This document shows, one piece after another, positions 39,559-63,600 of a stretch of 64,000 nucleotides of DNA. Both the position numbers and the translations under genes were made by a program. Position 1 is the first letter of the stretch. Each line of letters opens with the position of its first letter. Under the pieces are notes generated by a model. The model worked only from the letters and a program-made list of their open reading frames with translations, was not told the origin of the DNA and did not search any database. Origin of the DNA: Pseudomicrostroma phylloplanum. Its lineage: Eukaryota > Basidiomycota > Exobasidiomycetes > Microstromatales. The stretch is from the NCBI GenBank assembly GCA_039545275.1, contig BCHS01000012.1, forward strand, positions 62,001 through 126,000, given 5' to 3'.

Positions 39559-40239
39559 TCACGCCTTCTTAGCACAACCTCCGAAGCACCCAGCCATCTT
39601 CCTCCACAGTGCCCCTCGCGTCTTACCCACATTCTTGCCAACCGGTACTTCAGGCGAAGCCTCCCCCACGTCCGCCTCCAGCGGATAAGCCGGCACTCGT
39701 GTCTCCTTCTTTTTCTCTGGGATAGGCGGCGCTGGGTCCGGGCCCTCCAGCACTCCCTTCCCCTTCTTCCACGGCGCATTCGCCCGCGTCCTCCCCGGCC
39801 TCGGCCTCGGCCTCGGTCGCTGATGCTCCGGAAGTGCAGGCTGCGTGAGGAGGTGACGAAACTCGCTCAAGTCGATGTACTTGAATGGCCGGTCGCCCAT
39901 AGGCGGGGAGCCGTTCCCCGGCATGCGCGGCTTGTGGGGTCCATGTGAGCTTAGCTTGCCTCTGGGTGGTGATGAGCTGCCAGAGGAAGTGGAAGAGATA
40001 GAGGTCGAGGCGGCACGGGAGGAGCCCGAGGACGAGGAGTACAGGTAGGGCGCTTCAGGGCGGGATTTAGTGCCGGAGGTCGAGGCGTAGTGGTTTTGCT
40101 TTGGTAGAGATTTTGGGAAGGGATTGGGTATGGGAGTCAGTGTGGATGTGGGCGAGGCTCGTGATGGGGAGCAGAGGAAGAGAAGTGCAAATGCCATTAG
40201 AAGCGCTCTGGATGCGAGCGAGAGACAAGAGGGAAACAT
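39559..40239 (-). CDS. secreted Ser/Pro-rich protein, family C member 1
   Basis: Single minus-strand exon, 226 aa from the ATG at 40239. Signal peptide with a hydrophobic core ALLMAFALLFLCSPSRA. The mature protein is Ser/Pro/Lys-rich and likely disordered. Motifs shared in the same order with the adjacent gene (40450-41178): ASTSGTK, a short D/E-F-R-H/D-x-L-T block (LSEFRHLLTQ), GKGVLEGPDPAPP and a C-terminal WRKMAGCF. The few cysteines are at the extreme C-terminus (AGCFGGCAKKA). The two genes also share upstream sequence. It lies 155 bp from the 3' end of SMC3, convergent. Function unknown; candidate extracellular protein. Confidence 0.72.
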   Translation of the reverse strand: MFPSCLSLASRALLMAFALLFLCSPSRASPTSTLTPIPNPFPKSLPKQNHYASTSGTKSRPEAPYLYSSSSGSSRAASTSISSTSSGSSSPPRGKLSSHGPHKPRMPGNGSPPMGDRPFKYIDLSEFRHLLTQPALPEHQRPRPRPRPGRTRANAPWKKGKGVLEGPDPAPPIPEKKKETRVPAYPLEADVGEASPEVPVGKNVGKTRGALWRKMAGCFGGCAKKA

Positions 40240-40449: not shown

Positions 40450-41178
40450 TCAGGCTTGCCATTGCTGAGCAACAGCTTGATATCGACGACCAAACCTCCT
40501 CTTGCCACTGCCCTTGAAACACCCAGCAACCGCCCTCCATACAGTTCCGATTCCTTTGCCCACGCTCGACGCACACTCTGCAATGACCCTGTTGCGCGTA
40601 CCGCTTGCTGGACCTCGGGCGCCGCGCTGAGCCTTGAGTTGCTCCACTGACAGCACAGACGCACGAGCTGCTGCCGCGGACATCATCCTTTGCCTTTGCT
40701 TCCATGTCATAGGCGGCGAAGACGGCGGGGGTCCTTCGACGATCTCTTTGCCTTTCTTCGAAGTCGCTTTGGCTCTCATGGGTGTCCTGATGACTCCGTG
40801 GGTGAGCATGTCTCGGAACTCGGCAGAGTTAGTCCTAAACACGTTGTACGCAAGACTCGAGTCGCTGGTCCAGGCACCTGTGCCAGGAGGCATATTGTGG
40901 CCTCCGCCAGCCCCTCTACCAGAGGGTCTGCCGAGTCGGATTTGGTTCGGCCTCGTGGGCGAAGATGGGGGAGAGTTGGATGGTGAGGAGGAAGAGGACC
41001 ATGACAAGATTTCAGGCTTGGTGCCTGACGTTGATGCATGCTCTGTGAGGTCTGTCATCTTAGCTCGCGGGAGAACCTGTGCGCCATGTACGATGTCCAA
41101 GGTCACCAGTGAGATCAAGAGTAGGTAGGTCCACATGATTCGAGAGACACCCTTGGACATGGCACGATGGGCCTGCAT
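40450..41178 (-). CDS. secreted Ser/Pro-rich protein, family C member 2
   Basis: Single minus-strand exon, 242 aa. I use the ATG at 41178 rather than the in-frame ATG at 41160, because the upstream block shared with the paralogue then lies at nearly the same distance from both starts. The hydrophobic segment is IMWTYLLLISLVTLDIVHGA. The mature protein shares ASTSGTK, an E-F-R-D-M-L-T-H block, GKEIVEGPPPSSPP and WRAVAGCF with the gene at 39559, but is otherwise strongly diverged and carries a basic C-terminal extension (GKRRFGRRYQA). No known domain. Its start faces the start of the pepsin-like cluster across a 596-bp divergent region. Confidence 0.7.
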   Translation of the reverse strand: MQAHRAMSKGVSRIMWTYLLLISLVTLDIVHGAQVLPRAKMTDLTEHASTSGTKPEILSWSSSSSPSNSPPSSPTRPNQIRLGRPSGRGAGGGHNMPPGTGAWTSDSSLAYNVFRTNSAEFRDMLTHGVIRTPMRAKATSKKGKEIVEGPPPSSPPMTWKQRQRMMSAAAARASVLSVEQLKAQRGARGPASGTRNRVIAECASSVGKGIGTVWRAVAGCFKGSGKRRFGRRYQAVAQQWQA

Positions 41179-41774: not shown

Positions 41775-43121
41775 ATGCCGTCTTTCTCAGGCCTCTTGCA
41801 TCTCGTCACGCTCGCTCTGACGCTCACCGTTGCCGCTGGAGATGCTCGAATGGACCTCGTGAGGCGAGGCTCAGGCTCTGACAGAGAAGTCTACGCTGCT
41901 GTCGCACGTGCCTTTGCTGAAGGTGATGTTCGGGAGCGCGGTGTTGAGCAAGACGGTGTCTACAGCATCCCTCTCATCAGGCGAACCGGTACGGCCTTCA
42001 CCAACAACACGCTCCTTCGAAGAGGCGCACAGTCAGTCGATATCGACATTGAGACGTTTGCCATTGAGCTTGGCATCAACGGCAAAAAATACCCTTACAA
42101 TGTCCTGACTCGTGAGTTGGCGTCGGATTCCTGGCGTGCATGGAGTGGCTTCTCAACTGACGTGCTCCTCTTTTCTCATGCCTGCAGACTCCGACCTCAT
42201 TATCGCCATGAATACCAAGGACGATGGCAGTGCTTGGAACCCCGCGGTCGACGTCAAGGCCAAGAAGGCGAAACCCAACGGACCCAAGGTCACTAGCACC
42301 GTTGGTGGGTCTGCGGCCCAGTACAAGGTCTCCAACGTGTCCATCGGCAACAGTACCCTTCACGGCATTGGACTTCTGTACGGAGATGCAGCTACTGCAA
42401 ACGACAAGGGCGATCCCGTCGGTGACCTAGGGCTCGGTCTTCCGGGCTCGACTGCTTTCCGCAACACGGCTGCCTCTAGTATCCTCAAGACGATGTACGA
42501 GGCGAAAACTCTGGCCAAGCCCATCTTTTCTCTGGCCCTGAATCGCCCTAATGACAAGCAGAGCGAGCTCGTTCTGGGCGCCGCGAGCGCGGGAGCTAAA
42601 GGTGCCAAGCTGTTCTGGCAGTCTAGTCAGAAGAACCGATGGGCTGTGAATGTTTCTTTCAACGGACACAAGGGCATCGCTGACCTTGGTGAGTAAAGAG
42701 ACTTGCGACGTCAAAGCACTGAACAGCCCTGGTTGACCGCACGTCTTCCTCACTGTCTCGTTCCACAGCTACGAACACGCACTTCATCATCGCTCCCCCT
42801 GACGTGGCCACCGAGCTTATCAAGAAGGTCGGTCTGACCCCTGAGAAGAACAAGAGTGGCGAGATCGTTGGCAAGTTGGACTGCGCCAAGCACATTGGAG
42901 ATACGAAGATCGACCTCGATGGTGGGTCCCTACTCTTCACCTCCGACTACGGTGCCGTCAAGGACGACCCAGAGGGCAACCAGTGCACCTACATCGTCAA
43001 GGGCGTTGAGCAGGGCGACTACCCCACTCCCTACACCTTCGGCATGGTCGTCTTCTACAACTACAATACGGCTTTCGACTTTTCCTCTGGCAAGCCCAGA
43101 GTCGGCTTTGTTCGCGCCTAG
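41775..43121 (+). CDS. secreted pepsin-like (A1-fold) protein lacking the first catalytic Asp, copy 1
   Basis: Three exons, 41775-42111, 42188-42688 and 42769-43121, phases agreeing; 396 aa. Signal peptide MPSFSGLLHLVTLALTLTVA, a propeptide-like stretch, and a dibasic LLRRG (residues 81-84) just before the fold starts at IDIETFAIELGINGKKY. The usual pepsin order is recognisable: flap region, VGDLGLGLPG, KPIFSLALNR, ELVLGAAS, WAVNVSFNGHKGIADL, PPDVATELIKK, and near the end GDYPTPYTFGMVVFYNYNTA, DFSSGKPRVGF. At the first active site D-T-G-S is replaced by L-T-H-S (residues 111-114). At the second, the Asp remains (D278) but the following T-G is Leu-Ala. An active protease is therefore unlikely. 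First of three tandem paralogues. Confidence 0.82.
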
Positions 43122-43620
43122 ATCAGTCGAATGGCATGATCAGCTCTCTCCAAACCGCTCCCTGTTATCTGTTCCTCTGCTGCTATGGCCCACTGTCCTT
43201 TCACCCTACGAACGCCAAGCCTTCTGTGCCCTGTCCAGAGAATGATCCGAGATTACGCCGAGCGCCCTGGGACCTGACTTCCTCGCGTCCCTGAGTGGAG
43301 ACATTGTTGCCAAGTCAGTAAGCTGACTATGGTTCCGAAAATACTTCGAGGGGCTTATGCCGCTTGTTGCGTGAGGAGGCGCCCTGACGAGGTACAAATT
43401 GTGATCGGAGCCATGTACCTGAAAGCGGCGCGGCCCGGGACAGCATGTCTTCCCGTTTCGGGTATACATTGGAGATCTGCTCAGAGGGGCACCCGTTCGA
43501 TCGCGCACGTTTCACGTATAAGCGACGGACCCTGCTCGCCCTTCGCCTTTGCCCCCTACCCCCCTCACGAACTATTTTCGAACACCCCTCCCGAAATCCT
43601 CCCACACTCATTTTACCACC
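43122..43620. other. intergenic within the pepsin-like cluster
   Basis: 499 bp holding the promoter of copy 2. Apart from the TATA element nothing was recognised. Confidence 0.4.
43517..43522 (+). promoter_or_regulatory. TATA box of pepsin-like gene 2
   Basis: TATAAG, 104 bp upstream of the ATG at 43621, followed by a C-rich leader like that of copy 1. Confidence 0.55.
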
Positions 43621-44787
43621 ATGCCTTCCTTTCGCCAACTTACAAGCCTCGTCGCTATCACACTGTCGCTAGCCGCTGCAACAAGCAATGCGCGCTTCGA
43701 AGTCGCCAGGGGTCCCCCCCAGCCTGTCATGGTCAGCCGCTCGCCCAACGCTGCTAGGAATCTCTTGACCGAACGAGAGCCCGAAGATGGCGTCATGCAC
43801 CTTCCCTTGGTCCGAATGTCCAGCCAGAGCAGTGACGCCAACCAGGTCCTGCAGCGAAGAGGCGGCAAGGCAGAGAACCTTCACATCGACTTTGACACCT
43901 TTGGTATCAAGGTGGAGATCAACGGCAAGCCCTACGTCTACGAATTTGTCAGTAACAGCGACACGGTATTGGGGTACAACGTCAAGGACGATGCCCATGC
44001 CTGGAACCCTACCAAGGACAAGGGAGCTCACAAGGCCGGCCCAGACGTGGTGAACATCTACAAGAAGTCGGCAGAGCAGTTCAAGGTTGACAGTCTCTCC
44101 ATTGGCAAGACGACCCTAAAGGACATGACTCTTCTGTACGAGGAGGCGATTGCCACATCTGCTGCTGGACGTCCCGTCGGGAACTTCGGCTTCGGACTTC
44201 CAAGCTCTTCTGCTTTCACTAGCTTCAAGGCTCCAGGATTTCTCGAGCGTGTTCGCAGGACCAAGGCCTGGCCCAGGAACGTCTACTCCGTGCAGCTGAA
44301 CCGCGGCAACGACGCAGACTCGGTTCTCGTGCTGGGCGACGCACCCAAGGACAGTTTCTGGTCTCCTAGCCAGAAGAACTCGTGGGCTCTGAACGTCGAG
44401 ATCGGCGGCCACAAGGGTATGGCTGACTTCACCACTAGCACCGACGGTATCGTTGTGCCCGTTGATGTCGCCGTCGATCTCATCAAGCAAGCTGGTCTGA
44501 AGCCTCACAAGGACAAGGATGGCAACATCTATGCTACCACCGACTGCAAGCAGAAGCTTCCCGATCTGTACATCAAGCTGCAAGGTGGACGCATGAAGTT
44601 TGTGTCCGAGTCACAAACCTACCCCAATGAGAACGGCCATGGATGCCTGTACATCATCAAGGGTATGGAGCAGGGCGACTACCCTACGCCTTACTCTCTA
44701 GGACTGCTCGTGTTCGCCAATTTCGACCTCTCGTTCGACTTCACCTCGAGCCGACCTATGATTGGAGTATACGGTCTGCCCCAGTAA
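43621..44787 (+). CDS. secreted pepsin-like (A1-fold) protein lacking the first catalytic Asp, copy 2
   Basis: Single exon, 388 aa, ATG at 43621; upstream the frame stays open without a better start. Signal peptide MPSFRQLTSLVAITLSLAAA, propeptide, dibasic QRRGG (residues 78-82) and then the fold at IDFDTFGIKVEINGKPYVYE. The first active site D-T-G-S reads V-S-N-S (110-113). The second keeps Asp (D269) followed by F-T-T. Other pepsin landmarks are intact: VGNFGFGLPS, DSVLVLGDAP, WALNVEIGGHKGMADFTTS, GLLVFANFDLSFDFTSSRPM, IGVYG. Unlike its neighbours it has no introns, which suggests intron loss (for example through a cDNA copy) or intron gain in the others. Confidence 0.82.
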   Translation: MPSFRQLTSLVAITLSLAAATSNARFEVARGPPQPVMVSRSPNAARNLLTEREPEDGVMHLPLVRMSSQSSDANQVLQRRGGKAENLHIDFDTFGIKVEINGKPYVYEFVSNSDTVLGYNVKDDAHAWNPTKDKGAHKAGPDVVNIYKKSAEQFKVDSLSIGKTTLKDMTLLYEEAIATSAAGRPVGNFGFGLPSSSAFTSFKAPGFLERVRRTKAWPRNVYSVQLNRGNDADSVLVLGDAPKDSFWSPSQKNSWALNVEIGGHKGMADFTTSTDGIVVPVDVAVDLIKQAGLKPHKDKDGNIYATTDCKQKLPDLYIKLQGGRMKFVSESQTYPNENGHGCLYIIKGMEQGDYPTPYSLGLLVFANFDLSFDFTSSRPMIGVYGLPQ

Positions 44788-45271
44788 AGGCAGTAACTAG
44801 TACGAGCAGCTCGCTTTTGCCGTAGAAAGGGCTCATACGCCTACTCTGCGTCAGATGGCTTTTGCCGTGCCGCGCGCCTCGGCAGTGACTCCTTCCGTTC
44901 CGCTTCGAGATTTTACTTGTCGACAGTGTCTATACTTGTTCCTTCCAAAATTGTCACCTTCCATTTGCCCTTTTCTCCACCATAATGACGAACATCACTT
45001 TCTTTCATTAGCATGGACTGAGTTTTCGGGAAGCCAGAGCTTGCCTTGTCTCGCGGCTGGCAAGCAAAATTGGCTTAGCAGGGCCAGCAGCGCCCTTGAC
45101 GACTGGATCAATCACTGCCTGAGGACGTAGTCAACAGACAGGTCCGACAGCAACGACGCTGCAAGAAGCTCTAGAAGATGGACACAGTTGCCCAGCAGCG
45201 TGCTCAGGCTTGGTAAGGCGACGTTGAATCCATCTTCGAAGCGCAATGAGAATCCAGGGAAGCGATGAAGC

Positions 45272-45535
45272 CCTGAACCAGATGAGCGGTACCTGATGGA
45301 GGCTCGTGGAGCCAGCATGGAACGCGTGGGGCTCTCAGGGTCGGGAGCAAGTCCTTGAACCAGAGAAGCGGTACCTGACGGAAATTGTTGGAGCCAGCAT
45401 GGAAGGCATGAGGCTGTCAGGGACGGGAGCAAGCGCCTCAACCAGATGGACGGTACCCGACGAAAATTCCCTGGAGCCAGCAGGCCCTGAATTAAATGAA
45501 AGGTACCTGATGGAAGTTCCCGGAGCTAATAGCAA
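45272..45535 (+). repeat. 82-bp tandem repeat, about 2.6 units plus a diverged fragment
   Basis: Units begin at about 45273, 45355 and 45437 (spacing exactly 82 and 82). Shared landmarks are AACCAGA, CGGTACCTGA, TGGAGCCAGCATGGAA and CAGGGTCGGGAGCAAG. The third unit is cut after GGAGCCAGCAGG, and a further diverged fragment (AAAGGTACCTGATGGAAGTT) follows 50 bp later. Because 82 is not a multiple of three, the units fall in different frames, so this is not a protein repeat. Confidence 0.8.
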
Positions 45536-45734
45536 AAGTTTCTCCGGGGGACCTGCAGATCTGCCCTGTTCCTGGAAGTTATGCTGTGTTCCCTGCAAGA
45601 AAGTTTCGTTCTTGTGCCGTCGCTGCGTCGTGCCTTGTACCTCGGTTAAATTAGGGTCCCTCTTGGACCAAGAGTAGGGTCCCTAGTACTAAGAGTAGGG
45701 TGCCTTGTAGCAACGGTGGATCCTCGGAAGAAGG

Positions 45735-45740
45735 TACAAA
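45735..45740 (+). promoter_or_regulatory. TATA-like element of pepsin-like gene 3
   Basis: TACAAA, 100 bp upstream of the ATG at 45835. It is a weak TATA match, but the position equals that of the TATAAG elements of the two paralogues. Confidence 0.4.
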
Positions 45741-45834
45741 TACCGGGCTGGATTTGGAGATTCCAGCCGAGAAACATCCACACCACTCCCTCTCCCTCTA
45801 ATACTACTTACGATCTCCACTTCACTCCACTGCC

Positions 45835-47239
45835 ATGTCTACCTTCTCCTACCTCTTCAGCCTAGTCGCTGTAGCCTTCCTTTTGACCGCTTCCTCATGC
45901 AACGGTCAGTTCACCCTCGCCAGGCGCGCCCATAGACCTGCTAAGCCAGTCCTTCTCGCTAGCCGAGATGGACCCATCGCACCTGTAGTGGAGGGCGAGG
46001 GAGTCTACACTCTTCCCTTGACTCTGACTGCCGGTGTTGAGACCAACTCAAGCTTGGTCCGCCGAGGAAGCACCGAGACTGTTCCCTTCGACTTCTCCAC
46101 CTTGTCGGTACAAGTCGCCATCAATGGCAAGCCCTACACCTACGCGCTCCAGACTGGTGAGTCCGAGGTCGAGCATCGCGATAGAGGAGGCTCGAAGGGT
46201 GGCACTGACTCTCTACCTCGTCTGCTGTATCAACCTCAGGTAGCGATATTACCACGGGGTACAATGTGCAAGCCGCTAAAGGAGCGTGGATTCCGGTAAG
46301 TCTTCCGAGGATGACAATATCAGGATTGTGCATGACTGAACTTTTGCCAACTCGTCTTGACCTGCAGAGCAAAGACCCACAGGCAAAGGTCAACGGCCCT
46401 CCCTCGGCCAACAACTACCATGGCCTCGCTCAAGAAGTCACCGTCAACAGCTTCTCCCTGGGCAAGACCACCGTGAAGAACTTCAACATGATCTACGAAG
46501 CCGAGCCAAACAAGGGCGGCAGGGGCCCCGTCGGCGACCTCGGCTTCGGTCTCAGGGGCCCTACCTTCGGTGGAAAGCCAGAGACCTCGACTAACTTCCT
46601 GGAGCAAGTAGCCAAGAACGGACTTTGGGCCAAGCCCGTCTTCTCGGTGGCCATGAGGCACAGCGGCGCCAGCCAGCTGGTCTTGGGCGCGGAGATCCCT
46701 AGCCCCAACCCGGCTATCCCGACTGCCTGGTCATCAAGTCAGAAGAACCAGTGGGCTCTCACAGCGACCATCGGTGGCCACACTGGACTAGCTGACTTCG
46801 TCACCACCAGTCCCTGGATCACCGTACCTCCGCAGGTGGCTGAGGACTTGATCAAGAAGGCGGGCTTGACGGCCGACAATGATGGCCGTGGTAACATCGT
46901 CGCCAAGTTCGACTGCGCCAGGAGGCCTCAGGCGGACTTGACCATCGACTTCGAAGGAGGTCGACTGCAGATCCCATCGCTCATGACCGCTATCCCCAAA
47001 GCCAACCCCAAGGAGTGCTTGTATGTTGTCAGGGGAACCGAGCAGGGATCTTACCCCACGCCTTTGTGAGTACAATACGCTTGGCAGATGTGTCCGGACC
47101 TTGATCCTTCACTAACATCTCTCGTCCTCGATGCTTTCGCAGCACTTTGGGTTTGCCAGTCTTCGCAAGTTACAACCTTATCTTTTCCTTTGCTTTGGGC
47201 AACCCAAAGATCGGCTTTGGCGTTCGCGACTGGGCTTAG
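45835..47239 (+). CDS. secreted pepsin-like (A1-fold) protein lacking the first catalytic Asp, copy 3
   Basis: Four exons: 45835-46156, 46240-46295, 46368-47065 and 47143-47239; phases agree, 390 aa. Signal peptide MSTFSYLFSLVAVAFLLTAS, propeptide, dibasic LVRRGS (residues 74-79), then FDFSTLSVQVAINGKPYTYA. The first active site reads Q-T-G-S (106-109), so only the catalytic Asp is replaced while the T-G-S loop is kept, the least degenerate of the three. The second keeps Asp (D269) followed by F-V-T. Landmarks: VGDLGFGLRG, KPVFSVAMRHSGASQLVLGA, WALTATIGGHTGLADFVTTS, TLGLPVFASYNLIFSF, PKIGFG. The intron after the Q-T-G codons is at the position of the first intron of copy 1, supporting common descent. 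Confidence 0.82.
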
Positions 47240-60657: not shown

Positions 60658-63600
60658 CTAAAAGGGCGCCCAGTCCTTTGGCGAGCCGATGATGCTCCAT
60701 CGGTCCTCGTAGGCAGTCCACACGTCCCAGCCCAACATGGCCAGCAGCTCCCTCTCCATCTCCTTCGCCTTGGCCAATTCGTCCCTGTTCGTCGAGTCAC
60801 CCACACCCATCTCCTTGATGAGCTTGCGCACGCTTTGAAGTGCCTGACCAGGGCGACCACCCTCACCCCCTTCGTCCCGCAGGTAGTTGGCAATCCTCAG
60901 GGTCGCCCATTCTCGGTTCTCCGTCGTCTCGCCGAGCAACTTGCGCGCCGACTCAAAGGTGGCCTTGAAGGCCGAGGCAGAAGCGGCGTCTTTGCCGTCC
61001 TTGTCCTTTGTGAGTAGAGCTTTGCCCTTCTTGACATAGGCGGTGACCAATGCCTTTTTCTTTTCCTCCATTCGCTTGTTCTCCTTTTTCTCGTCTTCGC
61101 TCTGCTCATTGGCAGGCAGGCGCTTCTCGCCGAGGTAAAGGAGGACGGACTGCACGTCGATTTCCTTGACGACCGCATCGGCAGCCTTGACGACGTCGTC
61201 GACTTCTTCCTTTTTGCCGGCGTCCAGCGACTCGAGCCGCGCCAGCAGCACAGGCAGAGAGGTAGGGTGTTCTTTGAGCAGGGTGTCGAGGAACTTCTTC
61301 TTCTGATCACCCTTGAGCTTCTTTGTCAGGGGCGCAAGCAGCTCCGGCAGCTGAGGCTCGTCCTCTTTACCTCCACCTTCGCCATTGTCCTCCTTCTTTG
61401 GCGCAGGAGCTACAATGTACTTGAGCGTGTACTTGCCGTCGGGGGCAAAGCCAAAGTCTCCAACGAGGATGTCGCCTGGTTGAGCCTCCTTGGGCAGCGC
61501 ATCGCCGTGGAGGTTGAGATCCAGGTTGAGCACTTTTCTCTCGCCAGGGAGGAGCTTGACCGCGCCGCCCTTGTACGAAGCTGGCTTGGCAGCGCCGAAG
61601 AGGTCGACGTGGTTGTCATAGGTGCTCAGGGTAATGTCCTTGCCCTTGGACAGGTTCTGCTCCACTGTCATAGTGGCCGTCCTCAACGCCTTGAGCACAG
61701 AGGGATTCTCGTTGAGCCACTGCACACGCACAGTGTACTCTCCCTTGGCGAGTTCCTTTGCCTTTGGGTAGACGTCGCCGAAGGCGACGAGCTTCTTTGT
61801 ATTGGTCTCAAAGATGGCAGTCAGCATCGGCACTGCCGAGTCGTAGAGGTTGGACAGAGGACTGGAGGTAGGCCACGACAGCTTGACAGGGCCTCCTTCG
61901 CCAATGGTCAGCTGGTAGGAATTGACGACCTCGCCCATCATCTTGCCGCTTGGGTGCAGATTGCGTGAGTCGACGAATGGCCGGATGACGGAGGTGGCAG
62001 GACGGACAAAGGTCCTGCGCTTGCTGAAAGAGATGGTGGGAGTAAAGGCCTCGAGACGAACATTGCTCATGCATTCAATCTTGACGGCTCCCTCGCCACC
62101 GATGAGAGTGAGCTCATCCCGACCGCTGACGGCGTGTCCGATGGTGATGCCGTGGAACTCTAGGTCGACGTCAATGTCGAACTTTTGTGCCGCGTTCCAC
62201 ATCTCCGCTAGGCACACTTCGAGCGTCTGCCCTCCTTTGACGGCAAACTTGCGAGTCATGGGCTCGCCTGACGTCAAGGCGAACACAAATGACTGCTCGA
62301 CGAAGCTCAAGCGACGCTGGGGTTCCACTGTGACCAGATGAGCCCAGAACTTGGCCGTCGTACCCTCTACGCCGTGGTTTAAGGAGCGGAATCGAGCCTC
62401 GCACCAAGTCGTGCCCTCGGGGACGTGGATGAAGTGGCGCTCCAACTTGCCGTCCCTGAGCGTCGTCGAGTAGCGGACGGTAGGCTCCGTCGAGACTTCT
62501 GGCTTCGTGACTGTGACGGGCACGTCGAATAGCTCGAGACCTGGGTTTGCAGAGTCGTAGCCCTTGACGGAGGCGACGTGAAGACCTGGCGGGAGGTGAG
62601 TGGGATCTACGCGAATCTCAAACGACCGACCATTGCTGCCGAGGAGGAGGAATTCTGGACTGGTCACCCACGACGCGTCACTCTTCAGGTTGCACTTGAG
62701 CTGGAGATGGTAGGCCTTTTCAGGCTCGGTGCCCTTGATCAGAGGCTTGACAGTAGCCATGAACTGATTCACCCTCGCAGTCTCGAGCTTCTCGCGGAGG
62801 TAAATGCCTCGCTTATCAGTCGAAGGCCTTGCCACGGGTTTCCCAGGTGGAGAGACGGCGACGGTGAACTCAAAGTCGGCGTCTTCTCGGGCTTGATTGG
62901 CGACGATGTACTCCCAAGCCTTGTCGGTCTGAATGAACCCGATGCCGAGCTCGTCATTGAAGTCCTTTGCAGTGGCGACGATGGCCTTGTGGACACGCGC
63001 AGAGGTGATTGGGATACCCTCCTGCTTCATGCCGGACAGCAGCAGAGCGATGGACCCGCACGCATTGGGCGAAGCCATTGACGTACCATTCATGAGCTGA
63101 GTCGCTTGGAGGCAGTACTTTGGAATGGCCGTGATGGCAGCTCCCGGGGCGTAGACCGTCGTACCTCTCGCTCCATCGGCAGCCGGACCACGAGACGACC
63201 AGGTAGTGGGCGAGTCCTTGACGCCTCGCTCTACCAGGGCGTACTCTGCATCTTGCATCGCCCCGCTATTGACGTATGCTCCGATTGTGAACACTCCGTC
63301 GGTGGTTCCCGCGGGCTGCCCTAGCGTAGTCATTGCAGGGGCAGAATTACCAGCAGACGAGACGAACAGGACGTCTTTTTGTCGAATGACGATGTCTCTG
63401 AGCGCCGAAGCAAAGGCACCAGCTCCCTCGACTTGCCAGGCGCCGTCTTCACCAAAGCTCATGTTGCAGCAGTCGGAATTGGTTGCGATGATCGCTTGCG
63501 CTGCGCGCATCAGGGCCTGACCGGTCTCCATGCCGTTCACGCGGCTGTCGCCGATACGAAGGGAGACAATTTCGATGCCAGGTGCGACGCCATTCTCTTC

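Follow-up and report, generated by a model that had tools for sequence, protein, structure and literature searches.

The window analysed, 64,000 nucleotides of contig BCHS01000012.1 of Pseudomicrostroma phylloplanum, a yeast-like member of a plant-associated order (positions 62,001 to 126,000; C12:62001-126000), carries three tandem genes, g1, g2 and g3, for secreted-looking proteins of the pepsin type in which both catalytic aspartates appear to be replaced. With a fourth copy on contig C15 of the same genome and four database proteins (P0001–P0004) they form a family of eight sequences, and the alignments support reading it as a family of pepsin-fold pseudoproteases, part of which is a tandem array. 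A sequence-only reading of the window had arrived at a pseudoprotease family from the loss of the first Asp; the case is stronger than was claimed, because both are gone. The genes were modelled with GT-AG introns and spliced by reading the DNA, and the models confirmed three tandem genes on one strand with the starts that had been proposed. Principal features (window positions unless C15 is named):

41775-42111, 42188-42688, 42769-43121, forward: exons of g1, secreted-looking pseudo-pepsin, 396 aa, 2 introns; sites LTHS and ATNT
42105..42192, forward: LTHS of g1, His codon split by intron 1 (phase 1); from the sequence
43621..44787, forward: g2, secreted-looking pseudo-pepsin, 388 aa, intronless; sites VSNS and TTST
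43855..43860, forward: Arg-Arg (79–80) of g2 preceding Gly81, putative propeptide cleavage site; invariant columns in the seven-sequence alignment A1, and a single P_proprotein (Kex2-type) match in the genome
43948..43950, forward: Val110 codon of g2, place of the first catalytic Asp; hhalign without realignment, and spacing
44425..44433, forward: Asp269 (−2, kept), Phe270 and Thr271 (place of the second catalytic Asp) of g2; alignments and spacing
45835-46156, 46240-46295, 46368-47065, 47143-47239, forward: exons of g3, secreted-looking pseudo-pepsin, 390 aa, 3 introns; sites QTGS and VTTS
46150..46244, forward: QTGS of g3, Gly codon split by intron 1 (phase 1), position as in g1; from the sequence
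46794..46802, forward: Asp (−2), Phe and Val (place of the second catalytic Asp) of g3; MAFFT, HMMER and spacing
C15:60968-64009 (L016 2469-5510), reverse: C15 paralogue, fusion gene, 1013 aa with one X from one unread base

Catalytic sites

First site: the motifs LTHS (g1), VSNS (g2) and QTGS (g3) were found as previously read, the third codon being split by an intron in g1 and g3; C15 has SLTS, and the orthologues have IGNS (P0001), VGNS (P0002, P0003) and SVTS (P0004). Intron 1 has a common position in g1 and g3 (phase 1, third codon of the dead motif). D[TS]G[ST] was present at this site in 0/8 family sequences. Val110 of g2 fell on the column of the first catalytic Asp in hhalign without realignment, MAFFT put residue 3 of the motif (N, H, G or T) on that column, and realigned hhalign gave a gap opposite it; Asp stood at the catalytic column in no register.

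Second site: the C-lobe pattern of the family is W-A-[LV]-x5-G-H-[KT]-G-x-A-D-[FL]-X, in which X marks the catalytic Asp position and is occupied by A in g1 (ATNT), T in g2 (TTST) and in P0001–P0003 (TTTT), V in g3 (VTTS) and S in C15 and P0004 (SLDS). The second-lobe Asp, which had been taken as kept in all three copies, is indeed invariant (A-D-[FL]) but lies at position −2, and the catalytic place is held by Ala, Thr and Val. A residue other than Asp was obtained at X with MAFFT (three modes on the proteins; three modes on the C-lobe, two short-hairpin active-looking enzymes being added), with hhalign (4/4 settings; Thr271 of g2 on the Asp column, Pro280 on Pro) and with HMMER (family profile against the enzyme C6:598044, ungapped through the site); in the HMMER alignments to pepsins (4 of 12 matches) the registers were off by 1–2 columns, again with no Asp. 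Spacing: Trp to X, 16 in 8/8 family sequences; Trp to Asp, 16 in the short-hairpin C6:598044 and C18:220119 and 24–61 in seven other enzymes; X to Pro, 9 in 7/8 by script and, by eye, also in g3, where an earlier Pro had stopped the script; Asp to Pro in active-looking enzymes, 9 in 4/7, otherwise 10 or 11. D[TS]G[ST] at the second site: 0/8 (six MAFFT runs and spacing; hhalign concurs in 4/4 settings). Intron 2 of g1 (42688-42770) falls inside the codon of this dead site.

The invariant Asp two residues ahead of the site might be taken to mean that the first Asp alone was lost and the second kept, the proteins being half-dead. This is very improbable: the six MAFFT runs, the four hhalign settings, HMMER (C6:598044; four pepsin alignments) and the spacing all give a residue other than Asp, and the kept Asp at −2 has an ordinary explanation, since active-looking enzymes of the genome carry Asp there too (VDFDTGS in C6:598044, IDFDTGS in C3:6918).

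D[TS]G was found nowhere in g1, g2 and g3; an alternative intact DTG or DSG, singled out beforehand as contrary evidence, is absent from these three and from P0001–P0004, and in C15 a single DTG occurs (residue 274, within ADTGDSPAY), ahead of the C-lobe Trp and at neither site. The second residue of the motifs (which we take to correspond to residues 33 and 216 in pepsin numbering, the "fireman's grip") is Thr or Ser in both lobes of g1, g2 and g3, Gly in the first lobe of P0001–P0003 and Leu in both lobes of C15.

Fold, processing and descent

Fold: hhalign of the family against seven active-looking proteases of family A1 gave probability 97.8 and E 4.9e-12 over 314 columns (local defaults: probability 95.9, E 6.2e-9); in this alignment the flap and the W in DTGSSxxW are altered relative to the active-looking enzymes. 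Seven proteins were scanned with Pfam PF00026 (gathering cut-off 19.9 bits) and five lay above the cut-off: g1, 41.7 bits (E 1.3e-10); g2, 21.2; P0001–P0003, 21.4–21.9; g3 reached 18.2 bits, C15 gave no match, and P0004 bears a precomputed PF00026 label that is not from the present scan. PF13650 matched g3 at 21.6 bits, under its cut-off of 24.3. With phmmer, g2 gave nothing at E 1 against PDB sequences. The predicted structure of the g2 mature domain, the one copy modelled, is a complete bilobal pepsin fold, and fold searches agree, so that the fold assigned earlier was borne out; with this model, Foldseek returned a Bla g 2 mutant (4rld, E 2.0e-13) and structures of histo-aspartic protease (HAP) at ranks 3, 19 and 33. 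An earlier full-length g2 model was superseded by that of the mature domain; in its Foldseek search aspartic proteases took ranks 1–38 of the best 50, followed by unrelated chains, with low TM-scores.

Several observations weigh against the loss of both aspartates in a retained pepsin fold. The first-lobe register differs among programs, though none places Asp there; all seven full-length active-looking enzymes have the longer hairpins, which leaves two enzymes, read as exon pieces, to carry the spacing argument; the good g2 model is only moderately confident, and the full-length one was poor (pLDDT 47.4, pTM 0.42); and Asp114, Asp269 and His264 of g2 are invariant in A1. These three residues, with HAP among the close fold matches, also speak for the proposal that the proteins are hydrolases still, acting through a rebuilt non-canonical site as HAP uses His for one Asp. 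We regard it as quite unlikely: Asp114 and Asp269 are offset by +4 and −2 relative to the catalytic residues and, by these sequence positions, would be unrelated by lobe symmetry, and HAP retains its second Asp.

Secretion and processing: the N-termini of g1, g2 and g3 are hydrophobic as judged by eye, which upholds that part of the earlier signal-peptide claim, the signal peptide itself being putative. The propeptide-type Arg-Arg-Gly ascribed to all three copies is present and is invariant in 7/7 sequences of A1 (R79, R80 and G81 of g2); P0004 has Arg-Arg-Ala at this place. The terminal block, described as PxxG(L/M)xVF, was found as P[YF]..G[ML].VF in g1, g2 and g3. Two C-lobe Cys residues occur in 8/8 family sequences and fall at corresponding positions where seven of them are aligned; pepsin has a disulphide Cys pair in its C-lobe, and the pair appears to be kept in the family.

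Relatives: the closest proteins from a named organism are those of Microstroma glucosiphilum (Microstromatales, Ustilaginomycotina). In the protein database g2 gave three matches among 5,839 candidates (P0001–P0003, 78–85% identical), A1 as query gave the same three (best 7,999 candidates by common words scored), and the C15 domain gave one (7,992 candidates scored). Five-residue words common to g2 number 5 with g1 and 2 with g3; because these are so few, there may be further members beyond the order, or orthologues of g1 and of g3. Identity to g2 is 43% for g1, 42% for g3 and 32% for the C15 domain.

Descent: in a tree of the eight family and seven active-looking sequences a branch supported at 100/100 set the family apart, C15 grouping with P0004 and g2 with P0001–P0003; the family has a long stem, of 2.63 changes per column. 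The sequence-only reading had the catalytic residue lost in three different ways, which as repeated loss is not supported. As all eight sequences form one clade without either Asp, the simplest reading is that both were lost once, before the paralogues split, with later drift at the freed positions. "Expanded in place" holds for the tandem array and fails for the fourth copy, which lies on another contig and has a peptide-repeat tail.

Constraint: g2 and each of P0001, P0002 and P0003 are identical at 34/36 residues around the dead second site; N-lobe identity to g2 is 76% (P0001), 85% (P0002) and 68% (P0003), and C-lobe identity 87%, 82% and 83%, respectively. This protein conservation speaks for a kept role. 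The genes might instead be functionless, decaying acid-protease duplicates, as the variation of catalytic-position residues between copies would allow; we give this very little credence, as the frames are open (those of g2 and the C15 copy throughout) and the splice sites clean, the Cys pair and cleavage site are invariant, and the g2 orthologues, without Asp at either site, are 78–85% identical.

Census: a search for an active parental copy, as had been suggested, revealed no close one in the genome (17.08 Mb, 20 contigs), the best family-profile scores being 18.2 bits (C3:6918), 15.2 (C6:598044) and 15.1 (C18). The family A1 census grouped 17 rows into 12 loci (g1 and 11 others) and is a lower bound, g2, g3 and C15 being undetected by the scan; C3:6918, C6:598044 and C18:220119 were read piecewise only. 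Both Asp are visible in 10/11 other loci, and the four pseudo-pepsins are thus unusual in their own genome. The only exception, C14:181339 (within C14:179000-184000, L021, reverse strand), has ATGV at the first motif and an intact DSGS at the second, another partial loss of the catalytic pair. C18:220119 (L017 2383-3952) consists of A1-like pieces with FDTAST (Gly to Ala) at the first motif and LLDTGSS at the second.

Fourth copy and gene neighbourhood

C15 paralogue: residues 1–415 of the protein are pseudo-pepsin, and the remaining 598 form a Cys-rich tail with 48 Cys, 10 Lys-Arg and 19 motifs of the form C[DNE]P..C; for its orthologue P0004 the counts are 66 Cys (769 residues), 13 Lys-Arg and 27 such motifs. 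The units are imperfect repeats, acidic and Cys-rich. The domains are identical at 257/310 positions over residues 106–415, the tails at 406/569 aligned residues with 229 gapped columns; the unit number therefore differs between species. Searched against its own genome, the repeat tail matched itself only. One P_proprotein match, for a Kex2-type protease, was found in the genome; PF11807 (UstYa/DUF3328) gave no match there, but 14/14 controls were equally silent. A secreted-looking frame of 216 aa (L016 227-877, reverse) lies about 1.6 kb away from where the fusion gene ends.

Neighbours of the array: the ten long frames scanned around it are mostly ordinary, with SMC, RabGAP, MutS, phosphoglucomutase, tripeptidyl peptidase II, amino-acid transporter and RNase PH domains. 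Two adjacent open frames beside the array (window 39562-40239 and 40453-41160, both reverse) have hydrophobic stretches near the N-terminus and are 30% identical to each other over 122 columns (E 2e-9, single comparison), their best other genome matches having E 0.08 and 0.24; they are perhaps part of a small secreted-protein cluster.

Proposed role and known systems

The family is probably of single origin, secreted and pepsin-folded, both Asp having most simply been lost before the four paralogues diverged, and kept as non-proteolytic binders. The proteins would leave the cell by the signal peptide and be cleaved at the Arg-Arg-Gly propeptide site, both read from sequence; they would take up the bilobal fold, held to include the C-lobe Cys pair from the structure predicted for g2 and from two invariant Cys; and they should lack aspartic catalysis, since the alignment has L/V/Q/S/I at the first catalytic position and A/T/V/S at the second. 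An extracellular partner (peptide, glycan or protein) may bind in the cleft and on its rim, of which the family motif [EK]QGxYPTP[YF] would be a part. In C15 the pseudo-pepsin would head a precursor, from which a Kex2-type protease probably frees the Cys-rich units between Lys-Arg sites. The likely function of the family is binding, and the data suggest a fold that was given over from digestion to binding or to peptide delivery.

Two more specific proposals are put forward tentatively. In one, the dead pepsin domain of C15 serves as carrier, chaperone or first binding partner of the acidic Cys-rich peptides released by Kex2, and g1–g3 bind the same or related peptides extracellularly; we think this rather doubtful, and, if true, it would amount to a pseudoprotease-based peptide-delivery system in Microstromatales. 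The other, a special case of binding and about equally doubtful, is that the proteins act as inhibitors or decoys towards plant or microbial enzymes or inhibitors, in the manner of the pepsin-fold glycosidase inhibitors of plants or of a bodyguard decoy. They are secreted-looking and dead, and the order is one of plant-associated fungi. Decoy paralogues without known enzymatic activity have precedent (PMC5814044, excerpt). There is also a weak match of g2 to the Pfam family TAXi_C, which is unlisted at E 0.1 for g1, g3, C15 and P0001–P0003. Against the proposal, this match has 17.1 bits under a cut-off of 23.9, and no close active paralogue to be shielded was found (best other locus 18.2 bits).

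Literature: among titles and abstract openings, with subscription papers and supplements outside the scope, no pepsin-fold pseudoprotease family in these fungi and no Kex2-repeat fusion of one was found. Within three papers on Kex2-processed repeat proteins (KEPs), the main texts of two surveys contain "aspart" not at all (PMC7329392) and once as an amino-acid name (PMC6339444), and the text of the third has "aspartic" once, as the amino acid (PMC9769878); the main text of a structural study that includes the P. glucosiphilum secretome (PMC9816061) is without "aspartic", "aspartyl" and "acid protease", though its tables may list such proteins. Within that scope the fungal family, the double Asp loss and the fusion are new. 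Two M. glucosiphilum orthologues are named "Acid protease" and "Peptidase A1 domain-co..." in UniRef and hypothetical protein at NCBI; protease counts based on such names would therefore take in proteins not expected to cleave by aspartic catalysis.

Dead pepsin folds with other uses are already known. Plant glycosidase inhibitors of the TAXI and GIP1 type reuse the pepsin fold for binding; the present family differs in being fungal and in its TAXi_C score under the cut-off. Among insects, Bla g 2, Per a 2 and Lma-p54 of cockroaches are described as inactive aspartic proteases, and for Bla g 2 and Per a 2 the function is given as unknown (PMC9541408, excerpt). The present family resembles them as a set of aspartic-protease homologues called inactive, with 4rld as a Foldseek match, and differs in that the cockroach proteins are of insect origin. 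To our knowledge the cockroach group has no tandem array of the fungal type and no peptide-repeat fusion. Ecm14, a conserved fungal M14 pseudopeptidase, is likewise predicted to be inactive (PMC7706225, excerpt), although as a metallocarboxypeptidase homologue it belongs to another protease family.

With secreted or vacuolar A1 proteases of fungi (candidapepsins, rhizopuspepsin, May1 of C. neoformans, proteinase A) the family shares the fold, the propeptide, the C-lobe Cys pair and PF00026 (g1, g2), whereas both catalytic Asp are replaced and the W of DTGSSxxW and the flap are changed; it would be a fungal case of a pepsin fold retained after the loss of both catalytic residues. KEPs are known in smuts, where Hum3 joins repeats to a folded domain, a hydrophobin (PMC4617103, excerpt). 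Like Hum3, Rsp1 and Rep1 of Ustilago maydis, the C15 paralogue is secreted-looking, with (imperfect) units split by Lys-Arg; unlike them, its folded part is an N-terminal dead pepsin domain, its units are acidic and Cys-rich, and its processing is presumed from the sequence. With this fusion to a Kex2-type peptide array, a link from a pseudoprotease to secreted peptides can be put to the test.

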